From contig CALXRI010000013.1 in assembly GCA_944390795.1 (NCBI GenBank), positions 1-64,000 of the forward strand: a stretch of DNA of 64,000 nt, given 5' to 3'. The stretch comes from an uncultured Victivallales bacterium (lineage in GTDB: Bacteria; Verrucomicrobiota; Lentisphaeria; Victivallales; UBA1829). The position numbers were made by a program, and so were the translations under genes. The notes under the pieces were generated by a model that ran no database searches, had not been told where the DNA came from, and was given only the letters and a program-made list of their open reading frames with translations. Positions 26,287-58,865 of the stretch are shown here, one piece after another; positions within the stretch are counted from its first letter, which is position 1, and the number at the start of each line of letters is the position of its first letter.

Positions 26287-26383
26287 ATGGTTCCGTTCCG
26301 TGGTTCCGGCCTGTTTTCTATTGAAGAGCCCGGAGCGTTTCGGTCATTCGAAGTCGAATGAAAACAACAGAAAGGATGACAGA

Positions 26384-27679: not shown

Positions 27680-27697
27680 GCAGGAGAAAGGAGTCTT

Positions 27698-40872: not shown

Positions 40873-41796
40873 TTACGGTTTCTCCTCATGAAGCTCCGCT
40901 CTGGCCGCTCCCTGTTTTTCCCGGTATTCCCGCGGTGTCATGCCGGCATATTTCCGGAATTCCCGGGAAAAAAAGGCGGCGCTCTGATAGCCGCAGGCCT
41001 CCGCGACCATGTGGACGGGCAGAGCGCCGGATTCCAGGAGCTCGCAGGCGCTCCGCATGCGGGCCTGAATGACAAAGTTTGTCGGAGAGCAGCCTACCGC
41101 GTCCGCAAAGCGCCGGGTCAGCGTCCGGATGTTCACGCCGAGCATCCGCGCCATGTTTTCCCTGGAGTAATCTTCCGCGGGATTGGAAAGGATCCGGCGC
41201 AGGAGCGACTGAAGCGTGCGCTTCCGGTTCCAGGGATGCCGCTGGCGGCTGATTTCAAGAAAAAAACGGTAGGTCAGCACAGACAGATGCATCTGCAGAT
41301 CGGGACCGCCTTCGGTGCAGGTCCGCTTGATTTCATCATAGATCTCTGCGATACGTCTCGGCTCCGTAAGGCGGAGCACTTCATTTTCCCGGGAAAAATC
41401 ATGTATGCAGAGCAGGGAGACAAGAGAGGATTTTTCCACCATGAGAACCCGCTTGAACAGCGGAGTGTCCGGCGCCGCATGAATCTCCGCCATCATGTCG
41501 GACCGTATGATGCAGAGCGATCCCGGCTGGAGCGGTTCCCTTGTGGAATGGCTCACGAATTCGCCGGCGCCTTCCGCAATCAGTTCAATGCACCACTGCG
41601 AGAAAAAGCTTTTTCCCTGACAGGTCATCCGGGTGACGCCGCCCGGCGCGATCCGGGATTCCCCGTAGGCGTTCAGGTGGATGGCGTTGCCCTGGAACTG
41701 ATCGACGCGGTTCCGGCAGATCAGGAACTCCTCATGATAGGATTTCGAAATATTGCACTGTTTCCGGAATTCGCCGCCCGGACGCCTTTCCGCCAT
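40873..41796 (-). CDS. AraC family regulator, first of two paralogues
   Basis: A 307-residue regulator. The N-terminal cupin-like domain includes NAIHLNAYGESRIAPGG and FSQWCIELIAEGAGEFVS. The C-terminal double helix-turn-helix includes ENMARMLGVNIRTLTRRFAD and VAEACGYQSAAFFSREFRKY. It is a clear paralogue of the regulator at 59828-60721 (for instance AYGES, SSLVSLLC against GSIVSLLC, and AEECGYKNPAFFSREFK). AGGAGGACCAG precedes the start at 41796. It is divergent from the Gfo/Idh gene. Confidence 0.9.
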   Translation of the reverse strand: MAERRPGGEFRKQCNISKSYHEEFLICRNRVDQFQGNAIHLNAYGESRIAPGGVTRMTCQGKSFFSQWCIELIAEGAGEFVSHSTREPLQPGSLCIIRSDMMAEIHAAPDTPLFKRVLMVEKSSLVSLLCIHDFSRENEVLRLTEPRRIAEIYDEIKRTCTEGGPDLQMHLSVLTYRFFLEISRQRHPWNRKRTLQSLLRRILSNPAEDYSRENMARMLGVNIRTLTRRFADAVGCSPTNFVIQARMRSACELLESGALPVHMVAEACGYQSAAFFSREFRKYAGMTPREYREKQGAARAELHEEKP

Positions 41797-41866
41797 TCTG
41801 GTCCTCCTGTGTTTTCCGGATATCATAGCGCGGAGAAAGAACTTTTTCAAGCGGGACGGCCTTTTT

Positions 41867-41893
41867 ATGCAATATATTTTCCCGATAATGCAA
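41867..41893. promoter_or_regulatory. Direct repeat, candidate AraC-type half-sites
   Basis: ATGCAA occurs at 41867-41872 and 41888-41893 in the same orientation, exactly 21 bp apart (two helical turns), the spacing typical for AraC-type half-sites. The proximal copy ends 10 bp before the -35 box of the Gfo/Idh promoter. Confidence 0.45.
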
Positions 41894-41903
41894 GAAAAGG
41901 CAA

Positions 41904-41932
41904 TTGTCAAAACAGAAAGATCCTGATATAAT
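41904..41932 (+). promoter_or_regulatory. Strong promoter of the Gfo/Idh gene
   Basis: TTGTCA (41904-41909), 17 bp, TATAAT (41927-41932), near the sigma-70 consensus. The start codon at 41968 is preceded by GAGGAG. Confidence 0.7.
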
Positions 41933-41967
41933 TATAGAAACGAACCTGCAGAGGAGTGCGGTACAAA

Positions 41968-43182
41968 ATGAAAAAAAGAATCGGCATCGTCGGCTTCGGC
42001 GAAATGGGGAAACGTCACGGGCTTGAATTTTATGAGGCGACACACGGCGGAATTGAAATCTGCGGTGTCGTGGAGCCGGACGATCTCATGTATCGCCGCG
42101 GATGCGAATGGAACGGCATAGAAGGGATTCCGCGCTTTGCGACGGTGGAGGAGCTTCTGAGCAAGGCGTCGCCGGACGGCGTGATCATCGCCTCTCCGAA
42201 CTTCACGCATCTGGAGAATCTGCGCAGGATGGAGGGGGCCTCGATTCCGGTTCTGATCGAAAAGCCGCTTGACACCTCTCTGGAGAAAATCGCGGAGATC
42301 GTCCGTTTCGCACGGAAATATCCCGCTCCGATCGTCGTGGATCATGTCATGCGTTACGCGCCGGTGATCCGGAAGGCGCGCGAACTGATCGAGCAGGGAA
42401 AGCTCGGCAGGATCTGTTCCTTCGAGTTCTCCCAGCGGACGGGAATCGGCATGTTCCACACTTTCCGCAGGACGCAGCGCGGAGGCGGAGGACACATGAT
42501 CGAAAAGGCGACGCACGATCTTGACGTGATGCTCTATCTGACCGGGGCGAAGCCGCTTGCGGTGTCGATGCTTTCCGCGCAGCACGTGGTCGGCGGAACG
42601 AAGCCGGACGATCTGACCTGTCTTGACTGTCCGGACGCACAGGAGTGTCCGTATGCGAATCTCGGGCGCATCAGCTCCGCGGGGATCCGGGACGTGAGCA
42701 TTCTCAACAAGCTCTGTGTTTTTGCGAAGGAGGTGGATGTGCCGGACAACGAGGCCTGCCTGATCCGGATGTCCGGCGGCGTGTTCGGCACTTACAGCCA
42801 TACCTATTTCTGCGATATGCCCGGCCATACCCGGCTGTATGAGATCGTCGGCACGAAAGGAGCGCTTTACATCACGCTCGCGAAGGAGGAGCGCTACCTC
42901 GGGGAGGTCAAGTTCTTCCCGTTCGACGGCAAAGGCACGGTGGAAACCTCCACGTTTGAATACTTCAACAAGATCCATTACAACGGAGGACCTTATGTCG
43001 CGCGTCATTTCCTCGACCTGATGTGCGGGAAGACATCCGCGCCGTTCACCACCGTCGAGCAGGCATTCACCGCGGAGGCTCTCGGATTCGCGGCGATGCG
43101 CTCGTCCGCCGAGCAGAGCCGTTTCGTGACAATCGACGAGATGATTCCCGCGGATATGAAATCGGCCGTTCAGGGGGAATAG
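41968..43182 (+). CDS. Gfo/Idh/MocA family oxidoreductase with Cys cluster
   Basis: A 404-residue NAD(P)-dependent sugar or polyol oxidoreductase. Rossmann segment KKRIGIVGFGEMGKRHGLEF, family motif VLIEKPLDTS and catalytic-region GGHMIEKATHDLDVMLYLTG. It has an extra loop with cysteines, LTCLDCPDAQECPYANLG, seen in a subgroup of this family and likely a metal or structural site. The start at 41968 has GAGGAG at good distance; an upstream GTG is too close. It is divergent from the AraC gene and followed after 197 bp by the GH2 gene. Confidence 0.9.
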   Translation: MKKRIGIVGFGEMGKRHGLEFYEATHGGIEICGVVEPDDLMYRRGCEWNGIEGIPRFATVEELLSKASPDGVIIASPNFTHLENLRRMEGASIPVLIEKPLDTSLEKIAEIVRFARKYPAPIVVDHVMRYAPVIRKARELIEQGKLGRICSFEFSQRTGIGMFHTFRRTQRGGGGHMIEKATHDLDVMLYLTGAKPLAVSMLSAQHVVGGTKPDDLTCLDCPDAQECPYANLGRISSAGIRDVSILNKLCVFAKEVDVPDNEACLIRMSGGVFGTYSHTYFCDMPGHTRLYEIVGTKGALYITLAKEERYLGEVKFFPFDGKGTVETSTFEYFNKIHYNGGPYVARHFLDLMCGKTSAPFTTVEQAFTAEALGFAAMRSSAEQSRFVTIDEMIPADMKSAVQGE

Positions 43183-43274: not shown

Positions 43275-43302
43275 TTGTTATTTTTCCAAAAAATCATACT
43301 GT
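43275..43302 (+). promoter_or_regulatory. Possible promoter of the glycosidase run
   Basis: TTGTTA (43275-43280), 16 bp, TACTGT (43297-43302), in the 197-bp gap. A moderate match to sigma-70 boxes. TTGCAA lies just upstream at 43262. Confidence 0.35.
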
Positions 43303-43379
43303 AATGGCGCGGACCGGAAATTCGGAATTCCGGAGATCGGGCAGACGGAAGAACAATTTTCATGAAACAGGAGATTCTC

Positions 43380-45671
43380 ATGGACAGCAATCTGGAACGG
43401 GACTGGCGTTTTACGCGAAGTATCACTGAAGGATTTGAACAGCCGGACTTCGACGACTCCGCATGGGAGAGCGTTGATGTGCCGCATGACTGGGCGATCC
43501 GCGGGCCCTTTTCTCCGCAGAACGATGCGGAGATCACGGTCCTGGATGCCGCCGGAAACCGTTCCTATCATTACACCCTTCCCGGAAGAACGGGCGGACT
43601 GCCGCATGTCGGGAAAGGATTCTACCGGAAACGCTTCCTGATGGGGGAGAAGCTTCCCGGGCATGTCCGCGTGGAATTCGACGGCATCATGGCCAACTCG
43701 AAAGTCTACTGCAACGGGAAATATGCCGGAGGACGGCCTTACGGATATTCCTCCTTTGCCGTTGATCTCACGGATCTTGTGCATCCCGGAGAGAATGTTC
43801 TCGCGGTGGAGGCGGAGAACTATCCGCAGGCCAGCCGCTGGTATCCCGGAGGCGGCATCTACCGGCATGTCCGGCTTGTGACTGCCGGGCGTGTCCATAT
43901 CGACCACTGGGGAGTGCGGATCCGCACGGAGGGCGGCAGTGTCCGCGTGACGGTCCGGGTTCACAACCCGGAAAAGGAAACGGCGCATCTGAGAATTTCC
44001 GTTTCCGCGCCGGACGGGTCGCCCGCATTCGGCGGAACCATGGAGGGAACGACGGATTTCTCCAGCGCTTTCCGGATTGAGAATCCCTCTTTCTGGCATC
44101 CGGACACGCCGCATCTCTACCGTCTTGTTCTGGAACTCGGGGAGGAAAAACGGGAAATCCGGTTCGGACTGCGCGATACGGTGTTCGATCCGGTTCGCGG
44201 TTTCCTCATCAACGGCACGCCCCTGAAGTTCCGGGGCGTGTGTCTGCATCACGATCTGGGACCGCTGGGCGCGGCTGTGAACCGCGACGCGACGCGTCAC
44301 CGTCTCCTCCAGCTCAAGGGAATCGGATGCAATGCGATCCGGACCTCTCACAATCCGCCGGATCCGGAACTTCTCGATTTGTGCGACGAGCTCGGGTTTC
44401 TGGTGCTCTGCGAGGCGTTTGACGAATGGAAGCTCCCGAAATGTCCGAACGGCTACAATCTTTACTTTGACGAATGGTCGGAACGCGATCTCCGGGATAT
44501 GATCCGGCGCGACGCCAACCATCCGAGCGTCATCATGTGGAGCATCGGCAACGAGATTGACGAGCAGTACGTTCCGGAAGGGCCGGAAATGACCCGGCGC
44601 CTGTGCGCGATCTGCCATGACGAGGACCCCACCCGTCCGACGACGGCCGGGCTCAACAACGGCGACGACAGCATCCGCGGCGGTCTGTTCGACGATGTGG
44701 ATGTGAAAGGCTTCAACTACAAACCCTATATCTATTCCGTCTACCATCACAATTTCCCGGATGCTCCGATCTATTCTTCGGAGAGCGCTTCGACGCTCAG
44801 CAGCCGCGGGGAATATTCCGACCGGTTCTTCGAGGAGCTCGAAAGAAAGGACAATCTTCAGGTCGACAGCTTCGACCTCTGCTGTTCGGCGGGGGGGACG
44901 GTGCCCGATCATGAATTCAAGGGTCAGGACGACAACCCCTTTGTCATGGGCGAGTTCGTCTGGACCGGATTCGATTATCTCGGAGAACCCACCCCCTACC
45001 AGAATAAATGGCCTTCCAGAAGCTCCTATTACGGAATTTTCGATCTCTGCGGCATCCCGAAGGACCGTGCGTATCTTTACCGTTCCCGCTGGACAAGCCG
45101 GAGTGTGCTGCATCTGATGCCGCACTGGACCTGGCCGGGACGGGAAGGGAACATTCTCCCCGTTCAGTGTTATACGAGCTTTGACCGGGTTGAACTGTTT
45201 GTCAACGGCGTTTCGCAGGGCGTGCGCGTGAAAAATCCGAAAAAACTTCTCGGACGCTACCGCCTTGTCTGGAATAGCGTGCGTTATGAACCCGGGGAAC
45301 TCCGGGCGAAGGCTCTGGACCGGAACGGAAATGTCCTGATGGAAAGTGTGGTGCGGACCGCGGGCGAGCCGGATCATCTTGTCGGCGAGGCGGAACGCTG
45401 CGGCGACCTTGTATTTGTCACCGTTTCCGTCGTGGACCGTTCCGGCGTCCTCTGCCCGGACGCGGGAGACAGAATCTCCTTTGAGAGTCCGTCCGTCATT
45501 CTTGCGGCGGACGCGGGCGACCCGACCAGCACAAAGGAATTTCATCTGCCTTATGTCAACGCCTTTCACGGAAAATGCGCGGCGGTTCTCCGTTCCTCCG
45601 GAAAAACGGAACTTTCCGCCCGGGCGTTCCTGGGAGGCAGGGAAACCGTGCTTGAGTTGAGGGACATTTAA
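43380..45671 (+). CDS. Glycoside hydrolase family 2 protein (beta-galactosidase-like)
   Basis: About 763 residues. Order: sugar-binding jelly roll (ERDWRFTRSI, VDVPHDWAI, YPQASRWYPGGGIYRHV), immunoglobulin-like domain, TIM barrel, C-terminal beta domains. The barrel has FRGVCLHHDLGPLGAAVN, IRTSHNPPDPELLDLCDELG, the acid/base Glu in WSIGNEIDEQ (about residue 392) and the likely nucleophile Glu in IYSSESAST (about 468). No signal peptide, so cytoplasmic unless exported otherwise. The start at 43380 follows CAGGAG at ideal distance; an ATG at 43362 is the alternative. It begins a run of five same-strand genes. Confidence 0.9.
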   Translation: MDSNLERDWRFTRSITEGFEQPDFDDSAWESVDVPHDWAIRGPFSPQNDAEITVLDAAGNRSYHYTLPGRTGGLPHVGKGFYRKRFLMGEKLPGHVRVEFDGIMANSKVYCNGKYAGGRPYGYSSFAVDLTDLVHPGENVLAVEAENYPQASRWYPGGGIYRHVRLVTAGRVHIDHWGVRIRTEGGSVRVTVRVHNPEKETAHLRISVSAPDGSPAFGGTMEGTTDFSSAFRIENPSFWHPDTPHLYRLVLELGEEKREIRFGLRDTVFDPVRGFLINGTPLKFRGVCLHHDLGPLGAAVNRDATRHRLLQLKGIGCNAIRTSHNPPDPELLDLCDELGFLVLCEAFDEWKLPKCPNGYNLYFDEWSERDLRDMIRRDANHPSVIMWSIGNEIDEQYVPEGPEMTRRLCAICHDEDPTRPTTAGLNNGDDSIRGGLFDDVDVKGFNYKPYIYSVYHHNFPDAPIYSSESASTLSSRGEYSDRFFEELERKDNLQVDSFDLCCSAGGTVPDHEFKGQDDNPFVMGEFVWTGFDYLGEPTPYQNKWPSRSSYYGIFDLCGIPKDRAYLYRSRWTSRSVLHLMPHWTWPGREGNILPVQCYTSFDRVELFVNGVSQGVRVKNPKKLLGRYRLVWNSVRYEPGELRAKALDRNGNVLMESVVRTAGEPDHLVGEAERCGDLVFVTVSVVDRSGVLCPDAGDRISFESPSVILAADAGDPTSTKEFHLPYVNAFHGKCAAVLRSSGKTELSARAFLGGRETVLELRDI

Positions 45672-45701
45672 CTTTTCCAAGGATAAAAAAGAGAAGGAAG
45701 T

Positions 45702-47855
45702 ATGAAAAAAGAACGTCCTTATCAGTTCCGGGAATTTCTGGAGCAGGTGCACCGCCCGGGACGGCGCAGCCCGTCCGCCGCGCCGCTTCGCGAAAACGAA
45801 ACGTTTCTTGATGGAAGCTGGGAGATCCGTCTCCCCGTTTCCGCGGAAGACGGCGTGAAACGCGCCGCGCTGGATTTTCAGGACTATCTTTTTACCAGCA
45901 TGAATCTTTCCCTGCGGATCACGGCGGAGGGCAGGGAACGCAACGTGATTCAGCTGCAGAGCGGCGGGACGGGAAAGTCCCGCGCCTACGTGTATGAATG
46001 CGCGCCGGACCGGATCGTCGTCCGCGGCGATTCCTGGATCGGCGTGCAGCAGGGTCTTTACTTTCTGGAAGACCTGATGAACCTGCGCGGGCTTCCCGCG
46101 CTGGAACACACGGAAAAACCCCTCCGGCGCGCTCCGCTCTTTTCGCCGCGCATGGTGCATTCCGGTTACGGACTGGATCAGTTCCCCGATTCCCAGCTTT
46201 CCGCGATTGCGCATGCCGGATTCGATGCGATTCTGATTTTCGCGACCGGTCCCGACATGACCCGTCAGGGGCCGCTTGACTTCAACGACATCATCCACCG
46301 GGCTCTGCTCTACGGGCTCGACACCTATTTCTACAGCTATCTGGACGGCTACAAGCATCCGGACGAGAGCGATGCGGACGCATTTTTCGATTCCCGGTTC
46401 GGCGCGCTGTTCCGTCATTCCCCGGAGGCGAAGGGAATCATTCTGGTCAGCGAGTCGTGCGAGTTCCCGACCCGGGATCCCCGGGCGAATGCGCACAAAA
46501 CCACCGAGGGGACCAATGAATACACGCAGGGAATCTGCGGACACAAGAGCGGTTCCGGCTGGTGGCCCTGCTCCGATTATCCCCAGTGGGTGAACGCCGT
46601 CAAGAAAGCCTGCCGGCGCTACAATCCCGAAGCGGACGTGGTGTTCTGGACCTACGGATTCGGCCGCGCGCCCGCGGAACCGCAGCGGGAAATGATCCGC
46701 AATTATCCGAAGGACGCCTCGCTGCTCGTCACCTTTGAAATGTATGAGCAGCGCCGCTTCGAGAATCACACTGCCATGCAGTGCGATTATTCCATCACGT
46801 TTCCAGGACCGAGCCGGATGTTCCGCGTCGAGGCGGAAGCCGCCGCCGAAGCGGGCGTAAGGCTCTACTCCATGACCAATACGGCGGGGCGCACATGGGA
46901 CAACGGCGTCTGTCCGTATGAACCGGTTCCGCAGCAGTGGTTCCGACGCTTCGGGAACATGCACAAGGCAAGGAAAGACTGGAACCTTTCGGGACTGATG
47001 GAGTGTCATCACTACGGCTGGTATCCCTCCGTCATCAGCGAATGCGCGAAATGGAGCTTCTGGAGTCCGGAAACGGACCTGAATGAAATCCTTGCGAAAA
47101 TCGCGGTGCGCGATTTCGGTCCCGCCGGCGGTCCGCTTGCCGTCCGGGCATGGGAGAAATGGAGCGAGGCGATTTCCCGGTGGGCGCCGAACTTCGGCGA
47201 CCAGGCGGGGCCGATGCGCGTCGGAGCGGCATATCCCTTCGTGTTTCTGCCGTATCTGTATCCGCATGTGGAACAGCATATGCGCTATCCGAGCACCCCG
47301 CAGAGCGTCTGCGGATCGCGCATGATGCATCCGGATTATTATCCCGAGCACGTGCACGGCGGTTCGGCATGCGGCAGAACCCTGCACGAGGATCTCCGGA
47401 TTCTGCCCGCGGCCATGAAGATCTGGGACGAAGGGATTGCACTCATGGAGCAGGCCGTCGCCGCCGCGCCCCCGGAAAAGCGGGCCGATGCGGAAAAAAT
47501 GCTCGGCGTCGGAATCTATTTCCGCTGCGCGATGACCACGACGATTCATGCCAAGCGGTGGTTCATTCTCAACCGGAGACTGGAGATCGAAAACGATTTC
47601 GCCGTCGCCAACGGAATTCTGGACGAGATGCATGCGCTGATCGGCGAGGAGATGAAGAATGTGGAACGGGCGCTGCCCGTCGCGGAAAACGACTCCATTC
47701 TGGGCTGGGAGCCGCGTTCGGACTATCAGGGCGGCGCATGGCATCTGCGCTGGAAGATCCGCCAGCTGGAAAATCTGCGCGACTATACGCTTTGCGCCTA
47801 TCGCCAGACCCTGACGGAGGATCCTCCCTTCGAGGTGAAATATGAAAAAGTTTAA
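45702..47855 (+). CDS. GH20b-domain glycoside hydrolase-like protein
   Basis: A 717-residue protein. The N-terminal 120 residues form a GH20b/alpha-glucuronidase-type domain (RNVIQLQSGG, RIVVRGDSWIGVQQGLYFLE). A barrel follows with FSPRMVHSGYGLDQFPDSQL and AHAGFDAILIFATG; then KGIILVSESCEFPTRDPRA and a late helical domain. The pair DYSITFPGPS and LMECHHYGWYPS may line the active site. It fits no single named GH family by eye; hexosaminidase or uronic-acid activity is possible. GAAGGAAGT precedes the start, and the 3' end overlaps the next gene by 14 bp. Confidence 0.7.
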   Translation: MKKERPYQFREFLEQVHRPGRRSPSAAPLRENETFLDGSWEIRLPVSAEDGVKRAALDFQDYLFTSMNLSLRITAEGRERNVIQLQSGGTGKSRAYVYECAPDRIVVRGDSWIGVQQGLYFLEDLMNLRGLPALEHTEKPLRRAPLFSPRMVHSGYGLDQFPDSQLSAIAHAGFDAILIFATGPDMTRQGPLDFNDIIHRALLYGLDTYFYSYLDGYKHPDESDADAFFDSRFGALFRHSPEAKGIILVSESCEFPTRDPRANAHKTTEGTNEYTQGICGHKSGSGWWPCSDYPQWVNAVKKACRRYNPEADVVFWTYGFGRAPAEPQREMIRNYPKDASLLVTFEMYEQRRFENHTAMQCDYSITFPGPSRMFRVEAEAAAEAGVRLYSMTNTAGRTWDNGVCPYEPVPQQWFRRFGNMHKARKDWNLSGLMECHHYGWYPSVISECAKWSFWSPETDLNEILAKIAVRDFGPAGGPLAVRAWEKWSEAISRWAPNFGDQAGPMRVGAAYPFVFLPYLYPHVEQHMRYPSTPQSVCGSRMMHPDYYPEHVHGGSACGRTLHEDLRILPAAMKIWDEGIALMEQAVAAAPPEKRADAEKMLGVGIYFRCAMTTTIHAKRWFILNRRLEIENDFAVANGILDEMHALIGEEMKNVERALPVAENDSILGWEPRSDYQGGAWHLRWKIRQLENLRDYTLCAYRQTLTEDPPFEVKYEKV

Positions 47856-50202
47856 GGTGAAAGCCGCATTTCAGGAATTTCTCTTCACGGAGGAATGCGG
47901 CGGATTCCCCGCTTCTCTCACGTTGACGGAAGCGGACGGCGGACGGCTTGAGGCGTGGAATGTGCATCGGCCTTTTCTTTCCCTCCGCGACGGGGAAGGA
48001 ACGCTTCTCGTCCCGACTCTTTCCGGGGCGACGCCTCCGCGCCGCTACCGGACGGAATCCGCGCATATCCTGGCGTTTTCGAAAATTCCGTGGATCGAAG
48101 CGGAGAGCGGGAAAAAACGGAACGATCTCTCGCTCTCCCTGCAATGGGAGTTCTGCGACACGGGAACGACCTTCTGCGACATGTTTCTCTTCTACAGCAC
48201 GCTGGACGTTCCCCCGCTGTGCGACTGCAAGCTCCGGATTCCCCTCGACTTCACAGCGTTTCAGGATCTGCACTGGTCGAACACGCTTTTTCCGAAAGCG
48301 GTCGACGCCACGCTGATCCAGACAGTGCCGCCGGAGCGGTTCCTGCCGCACGGGGAAAAGCGCGTTTTTGAACGGGAGCTTTTTGCGAACGCAGGTTTCA
48401 ACGCCGTGCGGGATCACGGACCCTCCCTGTACTGCGAATTCTTTCTGGAGGGAAACAACACGCTCTTCAACCGGGCGGAATCCCGGGCGTGCTCGTCGAT
48501 CGGAATGGAGAAGGACCGCATGATGCTGGAGTGGAATTTCCAGAAAAACACCGAAAGCGGGAACGCCCGTCCGCTGCATTGGCGCAACCGCTGGGGCTTT
48601 ACGTTCCGCCCCGCCCGGACGATGCGGCGGCACCGTCCGATGACCATCTATCACTACATCGACAACTTTCAGCGTTTTCCGGATGAGGCGGAAGTTTGCG
48701 CGCTCGCGGAGTCCGGCGCGGATCTCGTGATCCTTCACGACTGCTGGCGCATTGACACGCAGAACAACGGAATCCCTTATGACGAGAAGCGTTTCCGCCG
48801 CATCATCGGGAAACTTCATGAGCGCGGAATTCGCGTGGCGCTCTATGCGCGCGGCAATGAGATCAGCGTCCGGGAGGATGCGGCCGCATGGTTTGACCGC
48901 TGGCTGAAGAAGGATTTCGACGGGCTTTATCTGGATTACGGCAGTCCCTTCGGCTACGCCGCCGCGCCGGGGGATGAAAACTATCCCGGCGGGCGCATCG
49001 CGTTCCGGGAGTATTACCGGGCGTTCGAGGCGCTGCGGTGCAGAGTCGGTCCGGACGGTCTGCTTTATGTGCATACGGGCCCCTGTTATTCGGGGATTGC
49101 CTCCGGCTTCTTCGACGGTTATGTCTCCGGAGAGGGGGAGCGCGGAATTCTGATCCGGGGAAGGGTGGAGCACGAGTATTTCACGATGGCGGCGGCGTCT
49201 CCGGGCACCGTCTGGACTGCGGCGTTTCCGGAATACGGGTCGGAGAAAATGATCCCGTTTCTCGCGGCGCACGGCGAGGTCCCGCATATTCCGCTTGGAA
49301 AGCAGATCGCATCCTCCTCGCTGGAGCATCCCCCGGTTCCCGGGATCAACGACCGCAATTTCGCTGCGCTGCTTCACGCCTACTCCCTGCTCGGATCGGG
49401 AAGCGGCTTCGGCTTTTACACCGATTACAATTCTTCCGGCGTTTTCGAACGGGAAAAGGGGGTGGCGCACACCCTTCTGACCGCGCAGCATGAGACATAC
49501 GGCGTCATGTTTCTTGCCAACTGCACAGGCAGACGGGCGAAAGCGCTCTTCCGGATCCGGAAAGGAAAACTGGCGGACTGCCGCTTTTTCCGGATTCCGG
49601 GACAGCCCGATCCGGAAACCCTGGATTCGCTCGCGCCCTGGCAGGCGGCGGCCGCACTGGTCGCGAGAGACGCGCAGAGCGCGGAACGGATTCTCCGGAA
49701 GCATCCCGTTCCGGTTCCCGGAGCGTCTCCTTCCGGAGAGGCATATCGGAAGTCCGTGGCGGAGCAGAAGAGAGCCCGCGAAAATCCGCCGGAATGCCGG
49801 AAATGCGTGATCGAGGTGGCGATGCCGAGCCGCATCACATCCCATGAGCAGTGTCTGTGGGAGGATCTCTATGACATTACGGCAGTTCTGCGTGAAGCAT
49901 GTCCGGATGGAACCGTCCGGAATCTCGGCTATGTTTCAAAACGGGGCCTGGAATCTTCGCCGCCTGCCGAGGCCTCGCGCCTCCGGCCGGGTACGGTCTC
50001 CGAAGGCATTCCGCTGCATGAGCATCTCGGCGCGGGGGCGCACTGCCTTGAACTGTATTCGGAACATCTCGGCGAGCCGTTTTACTCGTTCCTGAATGTC
50101 CGCTGCATTGAGGATGGAAAGGAAACGCGGATCATTGATTTCCGCAATGAACTGGAAGACGACCGTGCGATTCTGCACTGGAAGATCAACTTGAAGCAAT
50201 AA
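47842..50202 (+). CDS. Unrecognised large protein with TIM-barrel-like core
   Basis: A 786-residue protein, no signal peptide. Residues about 1-260 look beta-rich (GGFPASLTLTEADGGRLEAW, LRIPLDFTAFQDLHW). The middle has a barrel-like series: RPMTIYHYIDNFQRFPDEAE, GADLVILHDCWRIDTQNNGI, KLHERGIRVALYARGNEISV and FDGLYLDYGSPFGYAA. The LYLDYG strand with Asp recalls the nucleophile strand of alpha-glycosidase clans. The C-terminal 150 residues are beta-rich again. I cannot name the family. Overlap with the upstream gene and its neighbours imply a role in glycan breakdown. Confidence 0.6.
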   Translation: MKKFKVKAAFQEFLFTEECGGFPASLTLTEADGGRLEAWNVHRPFLSLRDGEGTLLVPTLSGATPPRRYRTESAHILAFSKIPWIEAESGKKRNDLSLSLQWEFCDTGTTFCDMFLFYSTLDVPPLCDCKLRIPLDFTAFQDLHWSNTLFPKAVDATLIQTVPPERFLPHGEKRVFERELFANAGFNAVRDHGPSLYCEFFLEGNNTLFNRAESRACSSIGMEKDRMMLEWNFQKNTESGNARPLHWRNRWGFTFRPARTMRRHRPMTIYHYIDNFQRFPDEAEVCALAESGADLVILHDCWRIDTQNNGIPYDEKRFRRIIGKLHERGIRVALYARGNEISVREDAAAWFDRWLKKDFDGLYLDYGSPFGYAAAPGDENYPGGRIAFREYYRAFEALRCRVGPDGLLYVHTGPCYSGIASGFFDGYVSGEGERGILIRGRVEHEYFTMAAASPGTVWTAAFPEYGSEKMIPFLAAHGEVPHIPLGKQIASSSLEHPPVPGINDRNFAALLHAYSLLGSGSGFGFYTDYNSSGVFEREKGVAHTLLTAQHETYGVMFLANCTGRRAKALFRIRKGKLADCRFFRIPGQPDPETLDSLAPWQAAAALVARDAQSAERILRKHPVPVPGASPSGEAYRKSVAEQKRARENPPECRKCVIEVAMPSRITSHEQCLWEDLYDITAVLREACPDGTVRNLGYVSKRGLESSPPAEASRLRPGTVSEGIPLHEHLGAGAHCLELYSEHLGEPFYSFLNVRCIEDGKETRIIDFRNELEDDRAILHWKINLKQ

Positions 50203-50265
50203 AGGACAACCGGGGCGGATCTCCGTCCCGGACGGGGCGTCCCCCGGATGAGAGAGGCCGGAACC

Positions 50266-53169
50266 ATGAGTTACTATTATTATGATTTCGATGCGGAAAG
50301 GCAGCTGCGGCCGTGGCGGGCGCTGGGACGGTCCGGGGACGTCTTTCAGCTTGAATGCACTTTCGAGTCAGGGGAGGGGGACTGGATGCTGCTCTGGGCG
50401 GACTGTCCCTGCGGGAGAAAATTTTCCCCGGAAGTCCTGAGCGTGAACGGCATTCCCGCCGCACCCGCGGAAAATGACTTCTACATCCGGGATCACGGCA
50501 TCCGCTACAGCCGGATGCTCCACACCGTATCCGGGATCAACAGGATCTCCTGTGAAGCGGCGTTCCCGCCGGACTGGAAAACGGAGGAGTTCGCGATGCA
50601 GCTGGTTCCCCTGTTCCCGGATGCGGAACGGGTGCGCGGACGCTTCGCCTGTCCCGTGTTTCCGCGGGAGGAGTATCCCCGGACGCCCGCGCCGTCCGTC
50701 GAAGGGTACCGCAAGGGGGCCGGACACAAGCTTGCTCCGGGACGTTTCGGAATGCTCAAGGGGGACGGTCTGCTGGATTGCGCCATGTCCCGTTTCGGCA
50801 AAGTGGACAAGATGTTTCTCTGCGGGCATCCCCGCTGGAAAAAGCCTTACGCATGGGCTTATTCCCTGCTGCAGGATCCCGCGGAACTGAGTCTGCCGGA
50901 CGAGGTGGACGTCAATGCGCTCCGCGTCTTCTGGAAACGCGGCGGAACGACTTATTCCTATTCGATCGCATTGCCGGGCATTGTGACGGAAAACAGTTCG
51001 GGTTCCCTGAAAATTTCACACCTTGAGTTTGCAGGCTCCTACCGGTATGTCATGACCGCCGGCGAGGTGTCCGCGCCGGACGACTTTTCCGGCGGCATGC
51101 CCGAAAACTGGCTGCTCCTTTTCGGCGCGGAGGAATACCCGGATGTTCCCCTGATGGTGATGCTGGACAGGAAACCCGCACGGATTGAGTTCAGGCGTCT
51201 GCCCGGCGGGCGTCTCTCCGAGGTTGTGTTCCACGGCTGTTCGCGGATGACGACGCTCACGCCGTTCGGGTTTGAAGGTCTGGAACCGGAGACGCCGGAG
51301 CATGTTCCGTTTCTGGAGGATGCCGTTTCACGGTGCCGTCTCTGGTCGCGCGCTCTTCTGGCTCTGCCGGTCGGATGCCGGGAATACTACCGGAATGATT
51401 ACGACGCGCGGAAGGTCCATATCGTGCAGTGTTTCGATTACAAGTTCTTTTCCGATGAATGGGGGACGCTTCCCCTTGAGCTCGCACCCCTGCCTCCCGC
51501 GCTCACCCTCTGCGGACAGGAGCTCCCCGAGGGGACAGCCGATTTCCGCTTCCCGACGAAATACGGATATCTGAAGGGGTATTTTTCGGATTCCAGCGCG
51601 TATTCCGTCGCCATGATGGAGACGATGCGCAAATATCCGCTCCGCGGAGAGAGTCCGGAAATTCCGGATCTGCTGCTGGAGGATCTCGACGAGTATCTGG
51701 AATTTGAATCCCGTTTCCCCTCCGGATGGCAGAGCTACGCGTATCCCGGGGCGGTTCTCGAGGGATACGCCTACGGATGCTCCATGGTGAACTTCATGCC
51801 GGAAAAGGCCGGGGAGACGATCCGGGGGGAGCTGCGGAAGCGTCTTCCCCTCGCATGCGATCCCGAACGGAAATATACGCTCCTCAAGACCGATCACGCC
51901 TATCTCTGGCGCACCGAACCGGACAAGGAGACGGTCTACCGCTACTATACCGATCCCGCCATGCCGAAAATGGAGATGTTCAATCTGTATGAACGGGTTG
52001 AACCCTATACCGGATGCCGCTATTACCTCTGCTATTTCAACTGCTGCCTGATTTCCGGCGGCCATATTGCCGAAGGAACCCGGAAGGAGGTTCTGGAATA
52101 TCCGCATCCATTTATGGAGAACGACTGGGGCGTCGGACTCACCCTGTATCTGATCTATACCGCGGCCCTTGCCTCCGGGGATTTCTCCGCTGTCAGGAAG
52201 CAATGGTCCGCCCTGAAGAAGATCTTCCTTTATTTTGACGTCTATCACGACTGGGCGTGCATGGGCGCCGGATACGCCGAGAAGGGGTGGACCTGGATCG
52301 AGGGCGCGAACTTCGGCGCGTTTCCCGCCATGATCAACATGGCGCGGACCGTCGGCGATCAGGAAACGGCGGAATTCTGCACGTATCTCGCGGCGAAAAT
52401 GCTGGCTCTGTGCGAGGCGAAATATCTTGCGGGACCTTATTTCGCACGTTTGTACCATGAGAAGCCCTGGTATGGGAACCGCTTTTTCCAGGAGGAGTAT
52501 TCGCCGGCCTGCAATTTCCAGTTCGTTCCCGCAGATCTTTCGGACAAAAGGGTGCAGCCGACCGGAATCTCCCTGCTGACGACCGATGCGATTTACCCGG
52601 AACTTTTCGAGTCTTTCCGCAAAACGATCCCGGAACCGCACCGCGACATGATCCTGCGCTACCGGGAGGCCCTGCTGGAAGGCGCCGCAGCCACGAACCG
52701 AGTCGAATTCAGTTATCTGCTGCTGAACAACACGCTGGACGAAACCGTGCCGGAACGCGAAATCCGCGAGGATATCGAACTGGCGATCCGGACCGGCCGC
52801 TTTCTGCGGGAGTGGCATGACATCAACCGCTTCGAGAACAGCCTTCCGAAGAACTATTTCAAGGCGCAGCTTTACGCCTGGCTGGAAATGCGGCGTCATC
52901 CGCTCTGGCTGGAGCACTGGCAGGACGTGTGCATCGAGGACGCCCGCTGGAACAGCGCGGAAGGAAAAGCCGTCCTCCGCATTGCGGCAACCGGAGAATC
53001 CGGCATGATCCGATGCGGCATCCGCAGGGAGCCGGAACGGATCGGATTTTCCGGCGGAAAGATGTCGTGGAAGAGCGGGGGAACGTTTCTTTTGATCGAG
53101 ACTGCGGGATCCGGAATCCTGACGCTTTCGTTCGGAAAACCGGCGGAAAATGCGGGTGCCCGCGTTTGA
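50266..53169 (+). CDS. Unrecognised large protein with helical toroid-like region
   Basis: A 967-residue protein, no signal peptide, starting MSYYYYDFDAERQLRPWRAL. The first 500 residues are beta-rich. From about 600 on, repeated helices with aromatic pockets appear: YPHPFMENDWGVGLTLYLIY, FDVYHDWACMGAGYAEKGW, WIEGANFGAFPAMINMARTV and LREWHDINRFENSLPKNYF. This recalls the six-hairpin (alpha/alpha)6 barrel of several glycosidases and lyases. No family assignment is possible by eye. It lies 63 bp after the preceding gene. Confidence 0.55.
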   Translation: MSYYYYDFDAERQLRPWRALGRSGDVFQLECTFESGEGDWMLLWADCPCGRKFSPEVLSVNGIPAAPAENDFYIRDHGIRYSRMLHTVSGINRISCEAAFPPDWKTEEFAMQLVPLFPDAERVRGRFACPVFPREEYPRTPAPSVEGYRKGAGHKLAPGRFGMLKGDGLLDCAMSRFGKVDKMFLCGHPRWKKPYAWAYSLLQDPAELSLPDEVDVNALRVFWKRGGTTYSYSIALPGIVTENSSGSLKISHLEFAGSYRYVMTAGEVSAPDDFSGGMPENWLLLFGAEEYPDVPLMVMLDRKPARIEFRRLPGGRLSEVVFHGCSRMTTLTPFGFEGLEPETPEHVPFLEDAVSRCRLWSRALLALPVGCREYYRNDYDARKVHIVQCFDYKFFSDEWGTLPLELAPLPPALTLCGQELPEGTADFRFPTKYGYLKGYFSDSSAYSVAMMETMRKYPLRGESPEIPDLLLEDLDEYLEFESRFPSGWQSYAYPGAVLEGYAYGCSMVNFMPEKAGETIRGELRKRLPLACDPERKYTLLKTDHAYLWRTEPDKETVYRYYTDPAMPKMEMFNLYERVEPYTGCRYYLCYFNCCLISGGHIAEGTRKEVLEYPHPFMENDWGVGLTLYLIYTAALASGDFSAVRKQWSALKKIFLYFDVYHDWACMGAGYAEKGWTWIEGANFGAFPAMINMARTVGDQETAEFCTYLAAKMLALCEAKYLAGPYFARLYHEKPWYGNRFFQEEYSPACNFQFVPADLSDKRVQPTGISLLTTDAIYPELFESFRKTIPEPHRDMILRYREALLEGAAATNRVEFSYLLLNNTLDETVPEREIREDIELAIRTGRFLREWHDINRFENSLPKNYFKAQLYAWLEMRRHPLWLEHWQDVCIEDARWNSAEGKAVLRIAATGESGMIRCGIRREPERIGFSGGKMSWKSGGTFLLIETAGSGILTLSFGKPAENAGARV

Positions 53170-53231
53170 CGGACATGAGAAGGGAATCCTGACGGGAGCG
53201 CGGGCGCATGCTGCCGCCTGACAGGAATTCA

Positions 53232-53249
53232 CCGGAGAGATTTCTCCGG
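53232..53249 (+). repeat. Perfect hairpin before the GH42 gene
   Basis: CCGGAGA (53232-53238), loop GATT, TCTCCGG (53243-53249). There is no T run, so it is not a normal terminator. It may protect or attenuate the mRNA in the 117-bp gap. Confidence 0.35.
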
Positions 53250-53286
53250 AGACGATACGGCATTTGACAAGAGGAGAGAATGCGTT

Positions 53287-55251
53287 ATGCTTGTGACAGG
53301 AACATCCTATTATCCGGAAGACTGGGATGCGGACCGGATTGCCGAAGATGCGGCGCTGATGCGGGAGGCCGGCATCTCGCTGGTCCGTGTCGGCGAATTC
53401 GCCTGGTCGCACATGGAGCGTTCGGACGGCGTTTTCACATTTGAATGGCTTCACGAGGCGTTCCGCATTTTTCAGGAAAACGGGCTCAAGGTCATTCTCT
53501 GCACGCCGACCGCGAGCGCGCCGCCGTGGCTGGTTCATGAGCATCCGGAGACGCTCCGATGCGACATGCACGGGCACCGCGCCTATCCCGGAGTCCGGGA
53601 ACACACCTGCTACTCCTCCGAAGCGTTCCTCCGCTGTTCCGCACGGATTGTCGAACAGATGGCGCGGGAATTCCGGGATTATCCCAACCTGTTCGCCTGG
53701 CAGGTGGACAACGAAATCGGCCAGTCGATCTTCCCCTATTGTTACTGCGATGCCTGCAGGGAGGGTTTCCGGAAGTTTCTCAAGCGGAAGTACGGAACGG
53801 TGGAGGCGCTTAACGAAGCGTGGGGCAACACCTTCTGGAGTCTGGAATATTCCGCCTGGGATCAGGTGGAGATCGGGGGACCGGATCTCCGGCTCAATCC
53901 GTCGCAGGTGCTTGACAGCCAGCTCTACCGCAGCCGCGCCATGTGCGATTTCACCATGATGCAGACGGATATCATCCGCAAATACTGCCCGGACACGATT
54001 GTCACGACCAACAATTATTCCCCGCTGGGAGACCGGCGGGAGGTCTACCGGAAGCTGGATGTCGCGTCCGGGGATTTCTACATCAATCCGCAGCACTCCC
54101 TTGGTGCCATGACCGCGATGTCCGACCGTTACCGCTGCTTCCGGCAGGGGACTCCCGCATGGCTGCTGGAGGTCGCCCCCGCCCCGTGGCGTCCCGGCCG
54201 GAATCTGCTCGGCTTTCTGCTGTGGCAGTTTCTTGCGAGGGGACAGGATGTTCAGGTCTATTTCCACTGGCGTTCCCATCGCGCGGGAAAGGAAAAGATC
54301 AATCCCGTCTTTCTCGGCTTCGGAAACAAAAAGACGGACTCCTTCCATCTTCTCAAAGCCGCAACGGAAGAGGCGCATGCGCTTCTGGACCGCTTCGGAA
54401 CTCTGCCGCAGCCGCTCTGCGAGGCCGCCGTTGTCAGCGATTACACTTCCGACTGGATTTTCATGCAGGGGGAATCCAGACGTTCCGCATGGATGAACGA
54501 CGGGCACGGCGCATTGCTGGAACTCGGTGTCAATTCGGACATTGTTTCGCCGGAAGACGATCTCTCCGGCTACAAACTGCTTGTCATTCCCGTTTATTCC
54601 CATTTCAGCGGATCCGCTGCGGACAAGCTCCGTTCTTTCATCGGAAACGGCGGCGTGGTCCTGATGAGCAGCCAGTCCGGCATCTACGACGCATATGCGA
54701 AATACATCGGGGAGCCGGGACCGGAGCATCTCCGGGACGTGTTCGGAATGGAGGTGGACACCGGCGTCACATTCCTGCTGGACCGCGATCCCGCCGCGCC
54801 GGACGAAATCGGCGGCACCGTGCGTTTCTCCGGATTTCTGGACGGCGAGGAGCTCTGCGGCATTGCCGACAAATGGATCGCCTCCATCGAAACGCTGGGG
54901 GCGGATGTGCCGCTGCGTTTCACGAATGCCATGTATCAGGGACAGCCGTTCATGACGGAGCATGAATACGGGAAAGGGTGCGCCATGTATTGCGGCGCCG
55001 CTCTGCTGGACCGCTCTTCCTACGGAAAAATTGTCCGGCACGCGGTCCGGCGGGCCGGAATCCGGACGCTGGAGCTGCCGGAAGGAGTGGAGGTCATTGC
55101 CCGCGGTCCTGTCACGTTTGTGTTCAACTACAGCGTGAACCCGGCGGTCTTTGATCTGCCGCTGAAGGGCCGTTCCCTGTCGGACGGCGGATTGGAAAAC
55201 GGGCATTTTGAACTTCCCCCGTTTGGATACCGTGTAATTGAAAGAGAATGA
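53287..55251 (+). CDS. Glycoside hydrolase family 42 beta-galactosidase
   Basis: A 654-residue GH42 enzyme cleaving terminal beta-galactosides. The barrel starts VTGTSYYPEDWDADRIAEDA and continues REAGISLVRVGEFAWSHME and VILCTPTASAPPWLVHEHPE. The acid/base is E143 in WQVDNEIGQS, and the nucleophile is likely E295 in WLLEVAPAPW. The zinc-type cysteines appear in YCYCDACREGF. A trimerisation-type domain (DLSGYKLLVIPVYSHFSGSA) and a small beta C-terminal domain follow. No signal peptide. GAGGAGAGAATGCGTT precedes the start. Confidence 0.93.
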   Translation: MLVTGTSYYPEDWDADRIAEDAALMREAGISLVRVGEFAWSHMERSDGVFTFEWLHEAFRIFQENGLKVILCTPTASAPPWLVHEHPETLRCDMHGHRAYPGVREHTCYSSEAFLRCSARIVEQMAREFRDYPNLFAWQVDNEIGQSIFPYCYCDACREGFRKFLKRKYGTVEALNEAWGNTFWSLEYSAWDQVEIGGPDLRLNPSQVLDSQLYRSRAMCDFTMMQTDIIRKYCPDTIVTTNNYSPLGDRREVYRKLDVASGDFYINPQHSLGAMTAMSDRYRCFRQGTPAWLLEVAPAPWRPGRNLLGFLLWQFLARGQDVQVYFHWRSHRAGKEKINPVFLGFGNKKTDSFHLLKAATEEAHALLDRFGTLPQPLCEAAVVSDYTSDWIFMQGESRRSAWMNDGHGALLELGVNSDIVSPEDDLSGYKLLVIPVYSHFSGSAADKLRSFIGNGGVVLMSSQSGIYDAYAKYIGEPGPEHLRDVFGMEVDTGVTFLLDRDPAAPDEIGGTVRFSGFLDGEELCGIADKWIASIETLGADVPLRFTNAMYQGQPFMTEHEYGKGCAMYCGAALLDRSSYGKIVRHAVRRAGIRTLELPEGVEVIARGPVTFVFNYSVNPAVFDLPLKGRSLSDGGLENGHFELPPFGYRVIERE

Positions 55252-55371: not shown

Positions 55372-56175
55372 ATGAAGAGAAAAAGAGAGTCAGGAGGGGA
55401 TTCCCGCCGTTCCGGACGGGGAATTTCGGGAAACGGTTTCACTTTAATTGAGCTCCTGGTTGTGATTGCGATTATTGCGATTCTGGCGGGAATGCTTCTG
55501 CCCGCACTGAAAATGGCGAAGGAAAAGGCGCATACGGTCTCGTGCCTTTCCCAGATCCGCCAGATGGTTCTCGGCGGCTGCCATCAATATGCGGCGGATT
55601 ACAACGACTGGATTTTCGGCTCCCGGTATCCGTTCCTGGACTCCGGTTCGAGCGACAAGTTCACTGCTGATACATCATGGATCGGCCGTCTCGGCAGCAG
55701 AAAGGACAATCCTTACGCACTCGGTTATCTCAAAATCACCACCTACAACACGCTGCAGAAGGGGTTCGGAGCCTGCCCCGCCGGAACCGGCTGCACAGCG
55801 GAAAACGGCACTCCGTGTCTGGGTGTCAATTACTCCATCAATCTCTGGCTTTCCAAACCCAACGGCAGTGTAACCAATATTACCGGGGCGAAATCCCTGA
55901 TTGCGGAGGTGAATGGAGTCACACCGAACATTCTGAAACTTTCCACTGTCGCATATCCTGCCCGTGTCGCCTGGATTTTTGACACTCCCGGCTATGTCTC
56001 GGAGACTCCGCTGCTCTGTCATCCGAATTTCAGCTTCAACGCCGGACTGCTTGACGGACATGCCGCGACATACCAGAGAAACATCTTTACTGCAGGCAAT
56101 GTCAATTATGCTCTGAAGCAGGTCACGGACTGGACATACAAGTCTAAAATGAATTTCGAGCCGTTCATCAAATAA
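55372..56175 (+). CDS. Pseudopilin-like protein (first module)
   Basis: A 267-residue protein. After a basic 20-residue leader, [20 protein letters not shown] gives a classical prepilin peptidase site (Gly before Phe) and pseudopilin helix, then [19 protein letters not shown]. The body has [19 protein letters not shown], and the end has [18 protein letters not shown], the DGH ending. AAAGGAGGATG precedes the ATG. The next gene, an exported LamG/GH123-like enzyme, starts 14 bp later; the same gene pair recurs at 60.9 kb. Confidence 0.88.
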
Positions 56176-56189
56176 GGAAAGGAAGTGGA

Positions 56190-58847
56190 ATGAAGAGAGG
56201 TTCATGGAAGAGTGTTTTTGCCTTGCCGCTGCTTTTGTCGGCGGGCGCCTGGTGCGCCGATCGCCCGCAGGCGGTCTTTGAGACGGATTTTCAGGTGGAT
56301 GCGAAGGGCGGAGTCATCGACAACGTCTCTCCCGCATCTCCCGGAAGGATCATCGGCGGAAAGGTGGCGATTCTGGATACGGAAATCGGGCGGGCTGCAA
56401 AGTTTGAGGCAAAACCCGGAATCCGGATTGAATTTCCGGATACGGAAAAAATCCGCACGCCGGAAACGTTCACATTTTCTGCGTGGTTCCGGATCGACGA
56501 CTATCCGGACGGCGCAGGCGAGCGCTCCCGGCGCTGTTACGGCTTCCTCTGCCGGGGCTGGCGTTTCTACGGCATCATCAGCCACGAAGGGAAAATACAG
56601 GGAAATGCGCTCCAGCGTTATCCGCTCAACGGCCCCGTGAAGCAGGCCGTCCCGGGAGATTGGATGCATTTCGCCTATACGTATTCCGTGGGGGAAAAGC
56701 GTTACGAACTGTTCATCAACGGGCGGAAAGTCGCCGCAAAGAGCGCGAACTGGAAAAAGGAATCCCCCGTTCCCGTTGATTTCAAGGAGGGATTGTATTT
56801 CGGCTCGGTCAAGGGATTCTGGCCTTTCAAGGGCATGGTCGGACGCACGAGACTGTATGCGGAAGCGCTGTCCGGAGAGCAGATTGCCGCCTCCGAGCAG
56901 GATCTGGTGCGGAAGCAGCTTCTCGGACTGAAAAAGGAGCTTGCGGGAGTGGAGAATTCCGATGCGCTTGCAGATAGAATCGAAAACCTGCTCCGGCTTG
57001 CCGTGATCCCCATTCACGAGCTGGAGCGCTGCCGCAGGGAATGGAAAAGCATCTGCGACATGAGTTCCCTCCGGCACAGCGGAAAGGCGGCAAATGAATT
57101 TTACGCATACAGCATCGTCGACCCGATGGGAGCGGAGACCTTCACGCTGGATACGCCGCTTCCCTCGGAGGGGCTCAACGGGAAACTCCTGATCCTGGCT
57201 GCGCGGAACGAGTATGAGCCGGCGTCCTTTCTTCTCCGCCCGCTGAAGGACATCCCCCGCTTTCTTCCCGTTGCGGAGGATCTGAGGAGCAAAGAGGGGA
57301 ATACGCTTCCGGCGTCCGCGCTTGACATCCGTCTGGTCAAGGTCATGGTGGCCTGCGGAAGTTACAACCGCGGTCCCGGCGCGCTGCGGACGCTGCAGCC
57401 TCTTGCCCTGCTTTACGACGACGCTTTGGTCCGCGTCGATCCGGAGGCCATGCACAACTATATCCGCCTCAGTTTTCCGGACGGGGAGAAATATATCTGC
57501 ATCAGCGACGAAAAGGGCGGTCCGAACGGCCGTCAGCTTTCCGCTAGGAAATATCCGATCCGTGATGCGAAAACGCTTCAGGCGCTCGATTTGAAGTCCG
57601 GCGTCAACCAGCAGTTCTGGATCACGCTGAAAACGGAAAAAGACACAAAACCGGGACTTTATGAATCCCGCATCCGGCTTACTTCCGGAGGAAAGACGAT
57701 CGGGGCGATTCCGCTCAAGGTGAGAGTGCTCCCGTTCGAACTGCCCGAACCGAAGACCAACTACGATCTCTCCCGCCCTTTTCAGGTCAGCACCTACTAT
57801 TTCAACACCATGGTGGACAAGGGCGACGGAACCGTCGGCTGCGGCAGGCGGACCGTTGCGCAGACCCGCGCCGATCTTCAGAACATGTATGCGCACGGCG
57901 TGCGTCTGCCGACGACGATCATGGCGTTCAGCTTTCCCGCCGTCTATCCGCCCTGGAACAAAAAATATCCGCACGGCACACCGAAACCGGATCCCACGGA
58001 GGAGGAACTGGAACTGAACCGGAAACGTTTCCGGCTTCTGAAAGAGGTCGGGATGTGGACGAAGCCGCTGCTTCTCCACACAGGGGGCAATTTCGGATAC
58101 CGTGAATTCTATGACCGGAAACGCGATTTCGCGAATCTGAAGGAGATCGTCGCGAAGACGCTGGATTTCTGCCGGAAGGAACTCGGGCACCGGGATGTCA
58201 TTTCCTATGCCGTGGACGAGGCGGAAGGAGACCGCATCAAAGCCCAGTATCCGGTCTGGGAGGATATGACGAAACTCGGCGCGAAGATTTTTGTCACGGC
58301 CAAACCGGAGAATCTTCATCTGCTTGCGGGGCGCGGAATCTCCGTCATCAACTTCTGCCACAAGCCGGACAGGAAAACCGCCGAGGCTGTGCACAAGGAC
58401 AATGCCCTCGTCTGGAAATACGCCAATCCCTTCCCCACGCCGGGAAGGAACGACAAGGCGGCGGTCCACCGGCTCAACTACGGTCTTCAGCTCTATTTCA
58501 CGGATCATGACGGGGTCTGCTCCTACAGCTTCAACCATTACGGCGCGCAGCTGGGATGGAACACCTTCGGGCACGGAACCGGATGCATCTATGTCTTTCC
58601 GACGGCCGACGGCGTGGTGGACACCCCCGCCTGGGAGGGACACCGGGAGGGAACCGACGACATCCGCTATGCGACCCGGCTCCGGCTGGAAATCGTCCGC
58701 GCCGCGAAAGGCGACGCCCGCCGCCGTGCCCTTGCGGAGGAGGCCGCCGCATTTCTGGATTCGCTCAATCCGCACAGCGCCGAATTCGATCCGCGGAACG
58801 TCCGCTGGCGGATCATTGACAAAACACTCGATCTGATGAACCAGTAA
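56190..58847 (+). CDS. Exported LamG-GH123-like glycoside hydrolase
   Basis: An 885-residue exported protein (signal KSVFALPLLLSAGAWCADR). Residues about 25-240 are a LamG-type beta sandwich (VFETDFQVDAKGGVIDN, ELFINGRKVAAKS). The rest resembles DUF4091/GH123 proteins: LLILAARNEYEPASFLLRPL, ALLYDDALVRVD, EPKTNYDLSRPFQVSTYYFN, LHTGGNFGYREFYD, the Asp-Glu pair in SYAVDEAEGD and a C-terminal WEGHREGTDDIRYATRL. In GH123 an adjacent Asp-Glu pair gives substrate-assisted hydrolysis of N-acetylgalactosaminides. Related to the partial gene at the window edge. Confidence 0.82.
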   Translation: MKRGSWKSVFALPLLLSAGAWCADRPQAVFETDFQVDAKGGVIDNVSPASPGRIIGGKVAILDTEIGRAAKFEAKPGIRIEFPDTEKIRTPETFTFSAWFRIDDYPDGAGERSRRCYGFLCRGWRFYGIISHEGKIQGNALQRYPLNGPVKQAVPGDWMHFAYTYSVGEKRYELFINGRKVAAKSANWKKESPVPVDFKEGLYFGSVKGFWPFKGMVGRTRLYAEALSGEQIAASEQDLVRKQLLGLKKELAGVENSDALADRIENLLRLAVIPIHELERCRREWKSICDMSSLRHSGKAANEFYAYSIVDPMGAETFTLDTPLPSEGLNGKLLILAARNEYEPASFLLRPLKDIPRFLPVAEDLRSKEGNTLPASALDIRLVKVMVACGSYNRGPGALRTLQPLALLYDDALVRVDPEAMHNYIRLSFPDGEKYICISDEKGGPNGRQLSARKYPIRDAKTLQALDLKSGVNQQFWITLKTEKDTKPGLYESRIRLTSGGKTIGAIPLKVRVLPFELPEPKTNYDLSRPFQVSTYYFNTMVDKGDGTVGCGRRTVAQTRADLQNMYAHGVRLPTTIMAFSFPAVYPPWNKKYPHGTPKPDPTEEELELNRKRFRLLKEVGMWTKPLLLHTGGNFGYREFYDRKRDFANLKEIVAKTLDFCRKELGHRDVISYAVDEAEGDRIKAQYPVWEDMTKLGAKIFVTAKPENLHLLAGRGISVINFCHKPDRKTAEAVHKDNALVWKYANPFPTPGRNDKAAVHRLNYGLQLYFTDHDGVCSYSFNHYGAQLGWNTFGHGTGCIYVFPTADGVVDTPAWEGHREGTDDIRYATRLRLEIVRAAKGDARRRALAEEAAAFLDSLNPHSAEFDPRNVRWRIIDKTLDLMNQ

Positions 58848-58865
58848 GAAAGGATGAATTTCCAG

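Follow-up and report, generated by a model that had tools for sequence, protein, structure and literature searches.

Two candidate glycoside hydrolases of unassigned family in a GH2-GH42 gene cluster of an uncultured Victivallales bacterium

Gene order and family searches

The window analysed here is a stretch of 64,000 nucleotides from an uncultured Victivallales bacterium (contig CALXRI010000013.1). Within it, a gene for an AraC-type transcriptional regulator lies on the reverse strand (40876..41910), and on the forward strand a gene for a Gfo/Idh/MocA oxidoreductase (41956..43182) is located upstream of a GH2 enzyme of 769 aa (43362..45671). The GH2 enzyme contains Pfam GH2 domains and is similar to the beta-galactosidase GalB, reaching 761 bits with the NCBIfam GalB model, which is under the cut-off of 900. 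It is followed on the same strand by C (45702..47855, 717 aa), which has a GH20b-like N-terminal domain, by the proteins A (47842..50202, 786 aa) and B (50266..53169, 967 aa), and by a GH42 enzyme (53287..55251, 654 aa; Pfam, 5.1e-95). The genes of C and A overlap by 14 bases, and the GH42 gene begins 117 bases beyond the end of B. From its first ATG, the open reading frame of B spans 50248-53169 on the forward strand and encodes 973 aa; the relatives of B use the second ATG at 50266, which results in 967 aa. The first-pass annotation had described A and B as proteins of 786 and 967 residues, with overlaps or short gaps between neighbouring genes and with GH2 and GH42 enzymes nearby, and this layout is borne out, with the second ATG as the start of B.

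The first-pass annotation had further called C a GH20b-type enzyme. This label holds for the family, where 9 of the 18 aligned members match Glyco_hydro_20b and the profile matches the N-domain of a beta-hexosaminidase (2e-4), whereas no convincing Pfam match was found for C itself (45702-47855), another unassigned protein. The family of C is large, with matches in 24 of 61 relatives and up to 17 matches in one genome.

Some other features of the window were observed alongside the cluster. Two long antisense open reading frames mirror the glycosidase genes (43278-47744, reverse strand, 1488 aa, and 51328-55206, reverse strand, 1292 aa); these seem to be a side effect of codon usage. Downstream of GH42, the region 55372-59795 encodes a prepilin-like protein, a LamG protein, which matches GH123_N weakly, and a protein resembling CBM9. 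Relatives of the LamG and CBM9-like proteins also precede GH2 and C in another genome (G020, locus L209). At 21804-28906, there is a run of proteins with RR-D-F-L-K-like leaders, which appear to be of the twin-arginine type by eye.

A contig scan resulted in a single match, the near-identical metagenome-assembled contig CALXSJ010000018.1 of an uncultured Victivallales bacterium. There (L061), the order Ldh_2, Gfo/Idh, GH2, C, A, B, GH42, an 885-aa protein and a 313-aa protein is retained at 95-98% identity. Comparing the window to this contig, we estimated a dN/dS of 0.158 for A and 0.121 for B; A and B are therefore conserved coding genes that are under purifying selection. The estimates for the neighbouring genes are 0.083 (C), 0.154 (GH2) and 0.090 (GH42).

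At E<=1, neither A nor B has a match in Pfam or NCBIfam. Against PDB sequences, A has no match and B has one unconvincing match (E 0.1), and the profiles of A (27 relatives) and B (16 relatives) yielded nothing convincing. When the members were scanned one by one against Pfam, no family was found in more than three of the 27 A or 16 B members. Among the A members, the matches were GHL6 in three (best 0.079), GH123_N in two (0.0014) and GH97 in two (0.023); among the B members, two unrelated models had one stray match each (E<=0.1). Melibiase (PF02065) was matched neither by A nor by its 27 aligned members, PF11308 (GH129) has no match in the A family, and the GH81 Pfam models match neither B (E<=1) nor any of its 16 members (E<=0.1). 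A does not reach the gathering score of PF19773 (DUF6259); the distant A relative L025 scores 26.4 of the 28.7 bits. The earlier remark that neither protein belongs to a nameable family thus stands for Pfam, NCBIfam and PDB sequences, and 'unassigned' is used here relative to these three, with the CAZy/dbCAN models outside the comparison. Profile searches and structure prediction had been proposed as a check; the former gave no convincing family match in these libraries, and the latter predicted a GH36-like fold for A and a GH81-like fold for B.

Predicted fold and candidate catalytic residues of protein A

The predicted model of A (pLDDT 90.4, pTM 0.90) has a beta-supersandwich at residues 1-258 and a (beta/alpha)8 barrel at residues ~263-515, and it ends in a C-terminal beta domain. 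The barrel strands that had been noticed from the translation, including LYLDYG, are recovered in this model, where LYLDYG (residues 362-367) lies at the end of barrel strand 4. The best Foldseek matches are the GH36 enzyme 2xn0 (1.4e-16) and the F. plautii galactosaminidase structures 9ayu (8e-16) and 9awt (4e-15), aligned over ~750-800 columns. Further matches are TtGalA and GH31, GH13 and GH129 enzymes, including NagBb. The VIA matches mostly cover the N-terminal sandwich; one of them, 8x1b, spans 500 residues (rmsd 7.6, Z 13.7).

The model thus places A close to GH36 and its GH31-type relatives, with which it would share the order of supersandwich, (beta/alpha)8 barrel and C-terminal beta domain. 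A differs from GH36 in having no Pfam Melibiase match and an identity of only ~10%. When compared directly by hhalign, the barrel of A scores 25.7 against GH36 and 19.7 against GH129, which is within the range of shuffled columns. A closer sequence link was found with DUF6259 (PF19773), for which we found no mention in the open literature searched. The alignment of A to 17 DUF6259 proteins is significant (hhalign E 3e-7, prob 93), runs through the barrel and includes a common strand-4 Asp motif. The barrel alone scores 38.9 against DUF6259, with a maximum of 23.4 in 60 column shuffles; since the barrel of A also scores 35.4 against family C, part of this signal may be a generic barrel likeness. 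DUF6259 is in turn linked to GH129 (1.3e-10) and to GH36 (3e-4).

The acidic or histidine residues D365, H411, E431, E433, E340, E199 and E203 are invariant in all 27 rows of the A alignment. Based on the alignment and the model together, invariant acids and aromatics would be located at the strand ends. D365 (codon 48934..48936, forward strand) is the candidate nucleophile at the predicted end of barrel strand 4, H411 (49072..49074, forward strand) lies at the end of strand 5, and E431 (49132..49134, forward strand) is the candidate acid/base just after strand 6; E433 also lies after this strand. At strand 5, the two families differ: all 17 DUF6259 rows have a Glu, whereas all 27 A rows have a His. 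The distant A relatives L084, L085 and L025 retain the motif DGxYxD with the Asp, the HT of strand 5 and the GE of strand 6. E433 is absent from L085, and E431 is therefore the better candidate.

In GH36 and GH31 enzymes, the nucleophile is an Asp on strand 4 and the acid is located on strand 6. A would resemble this layout, as the candidate nucleophile D365 lies where strand 4 ends and the candidate acid E431 follows strand 6. From the invariance and the strand positions of D365 and E431, the contrast to DUF6259 and the distant relatives, we infer that A is a retaining enzyme that uses these two residues.

Predicted fold of protein B and its likeness to GH81

In the predicted model of B (pLDDT 83.9, pTM 0.86), ~150 N-terminal residues precede a supersandwich; an (alpha/alpha)6 barrel comes next, and a beta domain forms the C-terminal part. 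The helical region that the first reading had described as (alpha/alpha)6-like is accordingly predicted to be an (alpha/alpha)6-type barrel. The 13 best Foldseek matches are all GH81 enzymes (8.6e-13 to 2.8e-10), and the next match follows at 1.7e-7. VIA gives a similar picture, with GH81 at Z 12.0-13.2 over 570-594 residues (rmsd 4.4-5.0) and the next match at Z 10.9. The predicted model of B thus combines supersandwich and (alpha/alpha)6 barrel as in GH81, over ~580 residues. Differences are the missing Pfam match, an identity of 8-11%, the extra ~150 N-terminal residues, the C-terminal beta domain and the galactosidases as neighbours.

By sequence, the tie between B and GH81 is weak: hhalign against GH81 barrel profiles gives E 0.027 and a score of 25.1, compared to a maximum of 24.6 in 100 shuffles. 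In this alignment, HDWAxM...WxEGAN of B is placed over HSWAxG...QESxSE of GH81, so that an H(S/D)WA...E stretch would occur in the corresponding place, with EGAN instead of ESxSE. A register with ExxN is possible for one Glu of ESxSE, whereas nothing in B clearly corresponds to the second Glu.

Two residues that are invariant in all 16 rows are candidates for catalysis. D620 in the motif ENDWG (codon 52123..52125, forward strand) is the candidate general acid, and E679 in WxEGAN (52300..52302, forward strand), within the GH81-aligned stretch, is the candidate general base. Judged by eye, they would be equivalents of the GH81 acid and base. D620 was matched by eye on L180 to the GH81 motif NDHHFHYG, and hhalign does not align the two there; the loop that carries E679 (residues 663-681) is poorly modelled (pLDDT <50).

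According to two publications, GH81 contains endo-beta-1,3-glucanases only (PMC3627985), and one GH81 enzyme has an (alpha/alpha)6 barrel and an inverting mechanism (PMC8949617). We found no mention of 'GH81-like' together with 'glycoside hydrolase' in the open literature searched. A search of 145 phylum genomes located GH81 itself in 5, and the window genome is not one of them.

Genomic distribution and proposed function

Relatives of A were found in 25 of 100 relative genomes and, at E<=1e-8, in 25 of 387 genomes from the phylum. Relatives of B occur in 31 of the 100 and in 47 of the 387 genomes; many of these 47 phylum matches are distant and lie within open frames of ~800 to 1600 aa. The window genome contains one further A (38% identical) and three further full-length paralogues of B (54, 46 and 44%). 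Tandem copies were also observed, with two A genes in G086 (L124:6846-11609) and two B genes in G010 (L144:5996-12096).

To estimate co-occurrence, we counted by hand the genomes with A (E<=1e-60) and B (E<=1e-100) among the 100 relatives. A was counted in 24 genomes, B in 17 and both in eight, compared to ~4 expected by chance if kinship is ignored. The two genes lie side by side only in the window genome (G000) and in the near-identical G002, although some adjacencies may be missed due to short draft contigs. Based on these two observations, we rejected the notion of a fixed pairing between A and B.

A recurs with C instead. G010 has a contiguous GH2-C-A order, with A cut at the contig end, and G017 and G023 have the order C-A on contigs that begin inside C; all three belong to one other genus of the same family. 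G005 carries A followed by fragments of C. G020 has GH2-C with no A in the stretch read, and its closest A (53% identical) is on another contig. The recurring order, GH2-C-A or C-A, supports that A and C act together, with GH2. The earlier suggestion that both proteins share their glycan with GH2 and GH42 is thus partly supported for A, and it is weak for B, which adjoins A in two genomes only and shares eight genomes with it.

No common glycan pathway emerged from the genes around 20 loci of A and 20 of B. The 59 proteins next to A loci are scattered; for the B loci, the tally covers 45 of 54 neighbours, with L142 and part of L140 among them, the six of L141 scanned separately, and L130:12373-17844 and two short open reading frames of L144 left out. 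Relatives of B that are 36-37% identical (L140-L142) are located in a conserved operon with a dehydratase, an SDR, an aldose epimerase and an MFS protein. In L141, this operon includes an IclR regulator, an enolase-superfamily dehydratase, the SDR, the aldose epimerase, the MFS protein and a GH16 enzyme; the dehydratase passes the galactonate dehydratase model (317.5 bits, cut-off 311). This suggests that galactose (or glucose) is released for oxidative catabolism. Laminarinases are the closest matches to the GH16 enzyme, and an endo-beta-galactosidase and porphyranases rank lower, so that the sugar may not be galactose.

We also checked in-frame TGA codons reported for some B relatives for recoding; in the two plus-strand loci in which the TGA could be located (L034 and L037), it is the terminal stop or adjoins it. 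Full-length open reading frames were recovered for L033, L035, L038 and L039. In the A relative G023:C178, one in-frame TGA was reported.

The reading that we prefer, with a probability of roughly 0.6, is that A and B are both glycoside hydrolases of the cytoplasm, come from families absent from the searched libraries and are each built on a known superfold. The GH2-C-A-B-GH42 cluster would dismantle an imported oligosaccharide that probably contains galactose; a galactoside is a plausible substrate for A and B. No signal peptide was seen by eye, and the two proteins are presumably cytoplasmic. A would act like the retaining alpha-glycosidases of the GH36/GH31 type, in that D365, located where strand 4 ends, would attack the anomeric carbon and E431, which follows strand 6, would be the acid/base. 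It may be an offshoot of the DUF6259 superfamily, with an invariant His in place of the strand-5 Glu. B would act like GH81 as an inverting enzyme, where the candidate acid D620 faces the candidate base E679 across an (alpha/alpha)6 barrel that is joined to a supersandwich domain.

The proposed catalytic roles, mechanisms and substrates have competitors. A might belong with GH13-, GH101- or GH129-like enzymes and use a different acid, such as H411 or E199/E203 of the N-domain, and may then not resemble an alpha-galactosidase. GH101 and GH129 are treated in PMC8106489. The hhalign chain from A through DUF6259 to GH129 alpha-N-acetylgalactosaminidases, NagBb among the fold matches and the invariance of E199 and E203 in all 27 rows would fit this. 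A direct signal between A and GH129 is missing (hhalign E 0.09-0.16), A does not have the strand-5 Glu of DUF6259, and E431 is invariant as well, so we regard this placement of A as unlikely. Similarly improbable is that B is a functional analogue of GH81, a beta-1,3-glucan hydrolase diverged past sequence recognition at a locus unrelated to galactose. Such a role would agree with the top fold matches being GH81 only, the laminarinase-like GH16 of the L141 operon and its dehydratase, which scores well for gluconate/galactonate too. It agrees less well with the absence of a GH81 Pfam match, the GalB-like GH2 and GH42 neighbours in the window, the lack of a signal peptide by eye and the second Glu of ESxSE without a clear counterpart.

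Both proteins look like glycosidases by their predicted folds and invariant acids, in agreement with the first guess from the sequence. The lyase alternative raised with that guess is not supported, as nothing lyase-specific was found. A PL26 lyase heads the VIA list for A, but this match covers 233 residues, mainly in the N-terminal supersandwich. For B, phosphorylases are another group of enzymes with (alpha/alpha)6 barrels, and 1h54 and 8hob are in its Foldseek list, but with weak E-values of about 1e-3 to 5e-3. That one or both of A and B are lyases, transglycosidases or phosphorylases of the same folds is the least likely of the alternatives. A bolder version of the preferred reading seems doubtful, though less so than any of these: A and B would each be the founding member of a new glycoside hydrolase family, the acid/base of A would have moved from strand 5 to strand 6, and among relatives of the GH81 fold, B would be the first with activity on galactosides.

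If this bolder version is true, A would document a change of the acid/base within one superfamily, from strand 5 (DUF6259, GH129-like) to strand 6 (GH36/GH31-like), and it would be a natural system in which to study how the catalytic acid of a barrel superfamily can come to sit on a different strand. B would then add galactoside activity to a fold so far linked to beta-1,3-glucan only. Victivallales genomes contain many large carbohydrate enzymes without names in standard libraries, and assigning A and B would name families that recur in this group.
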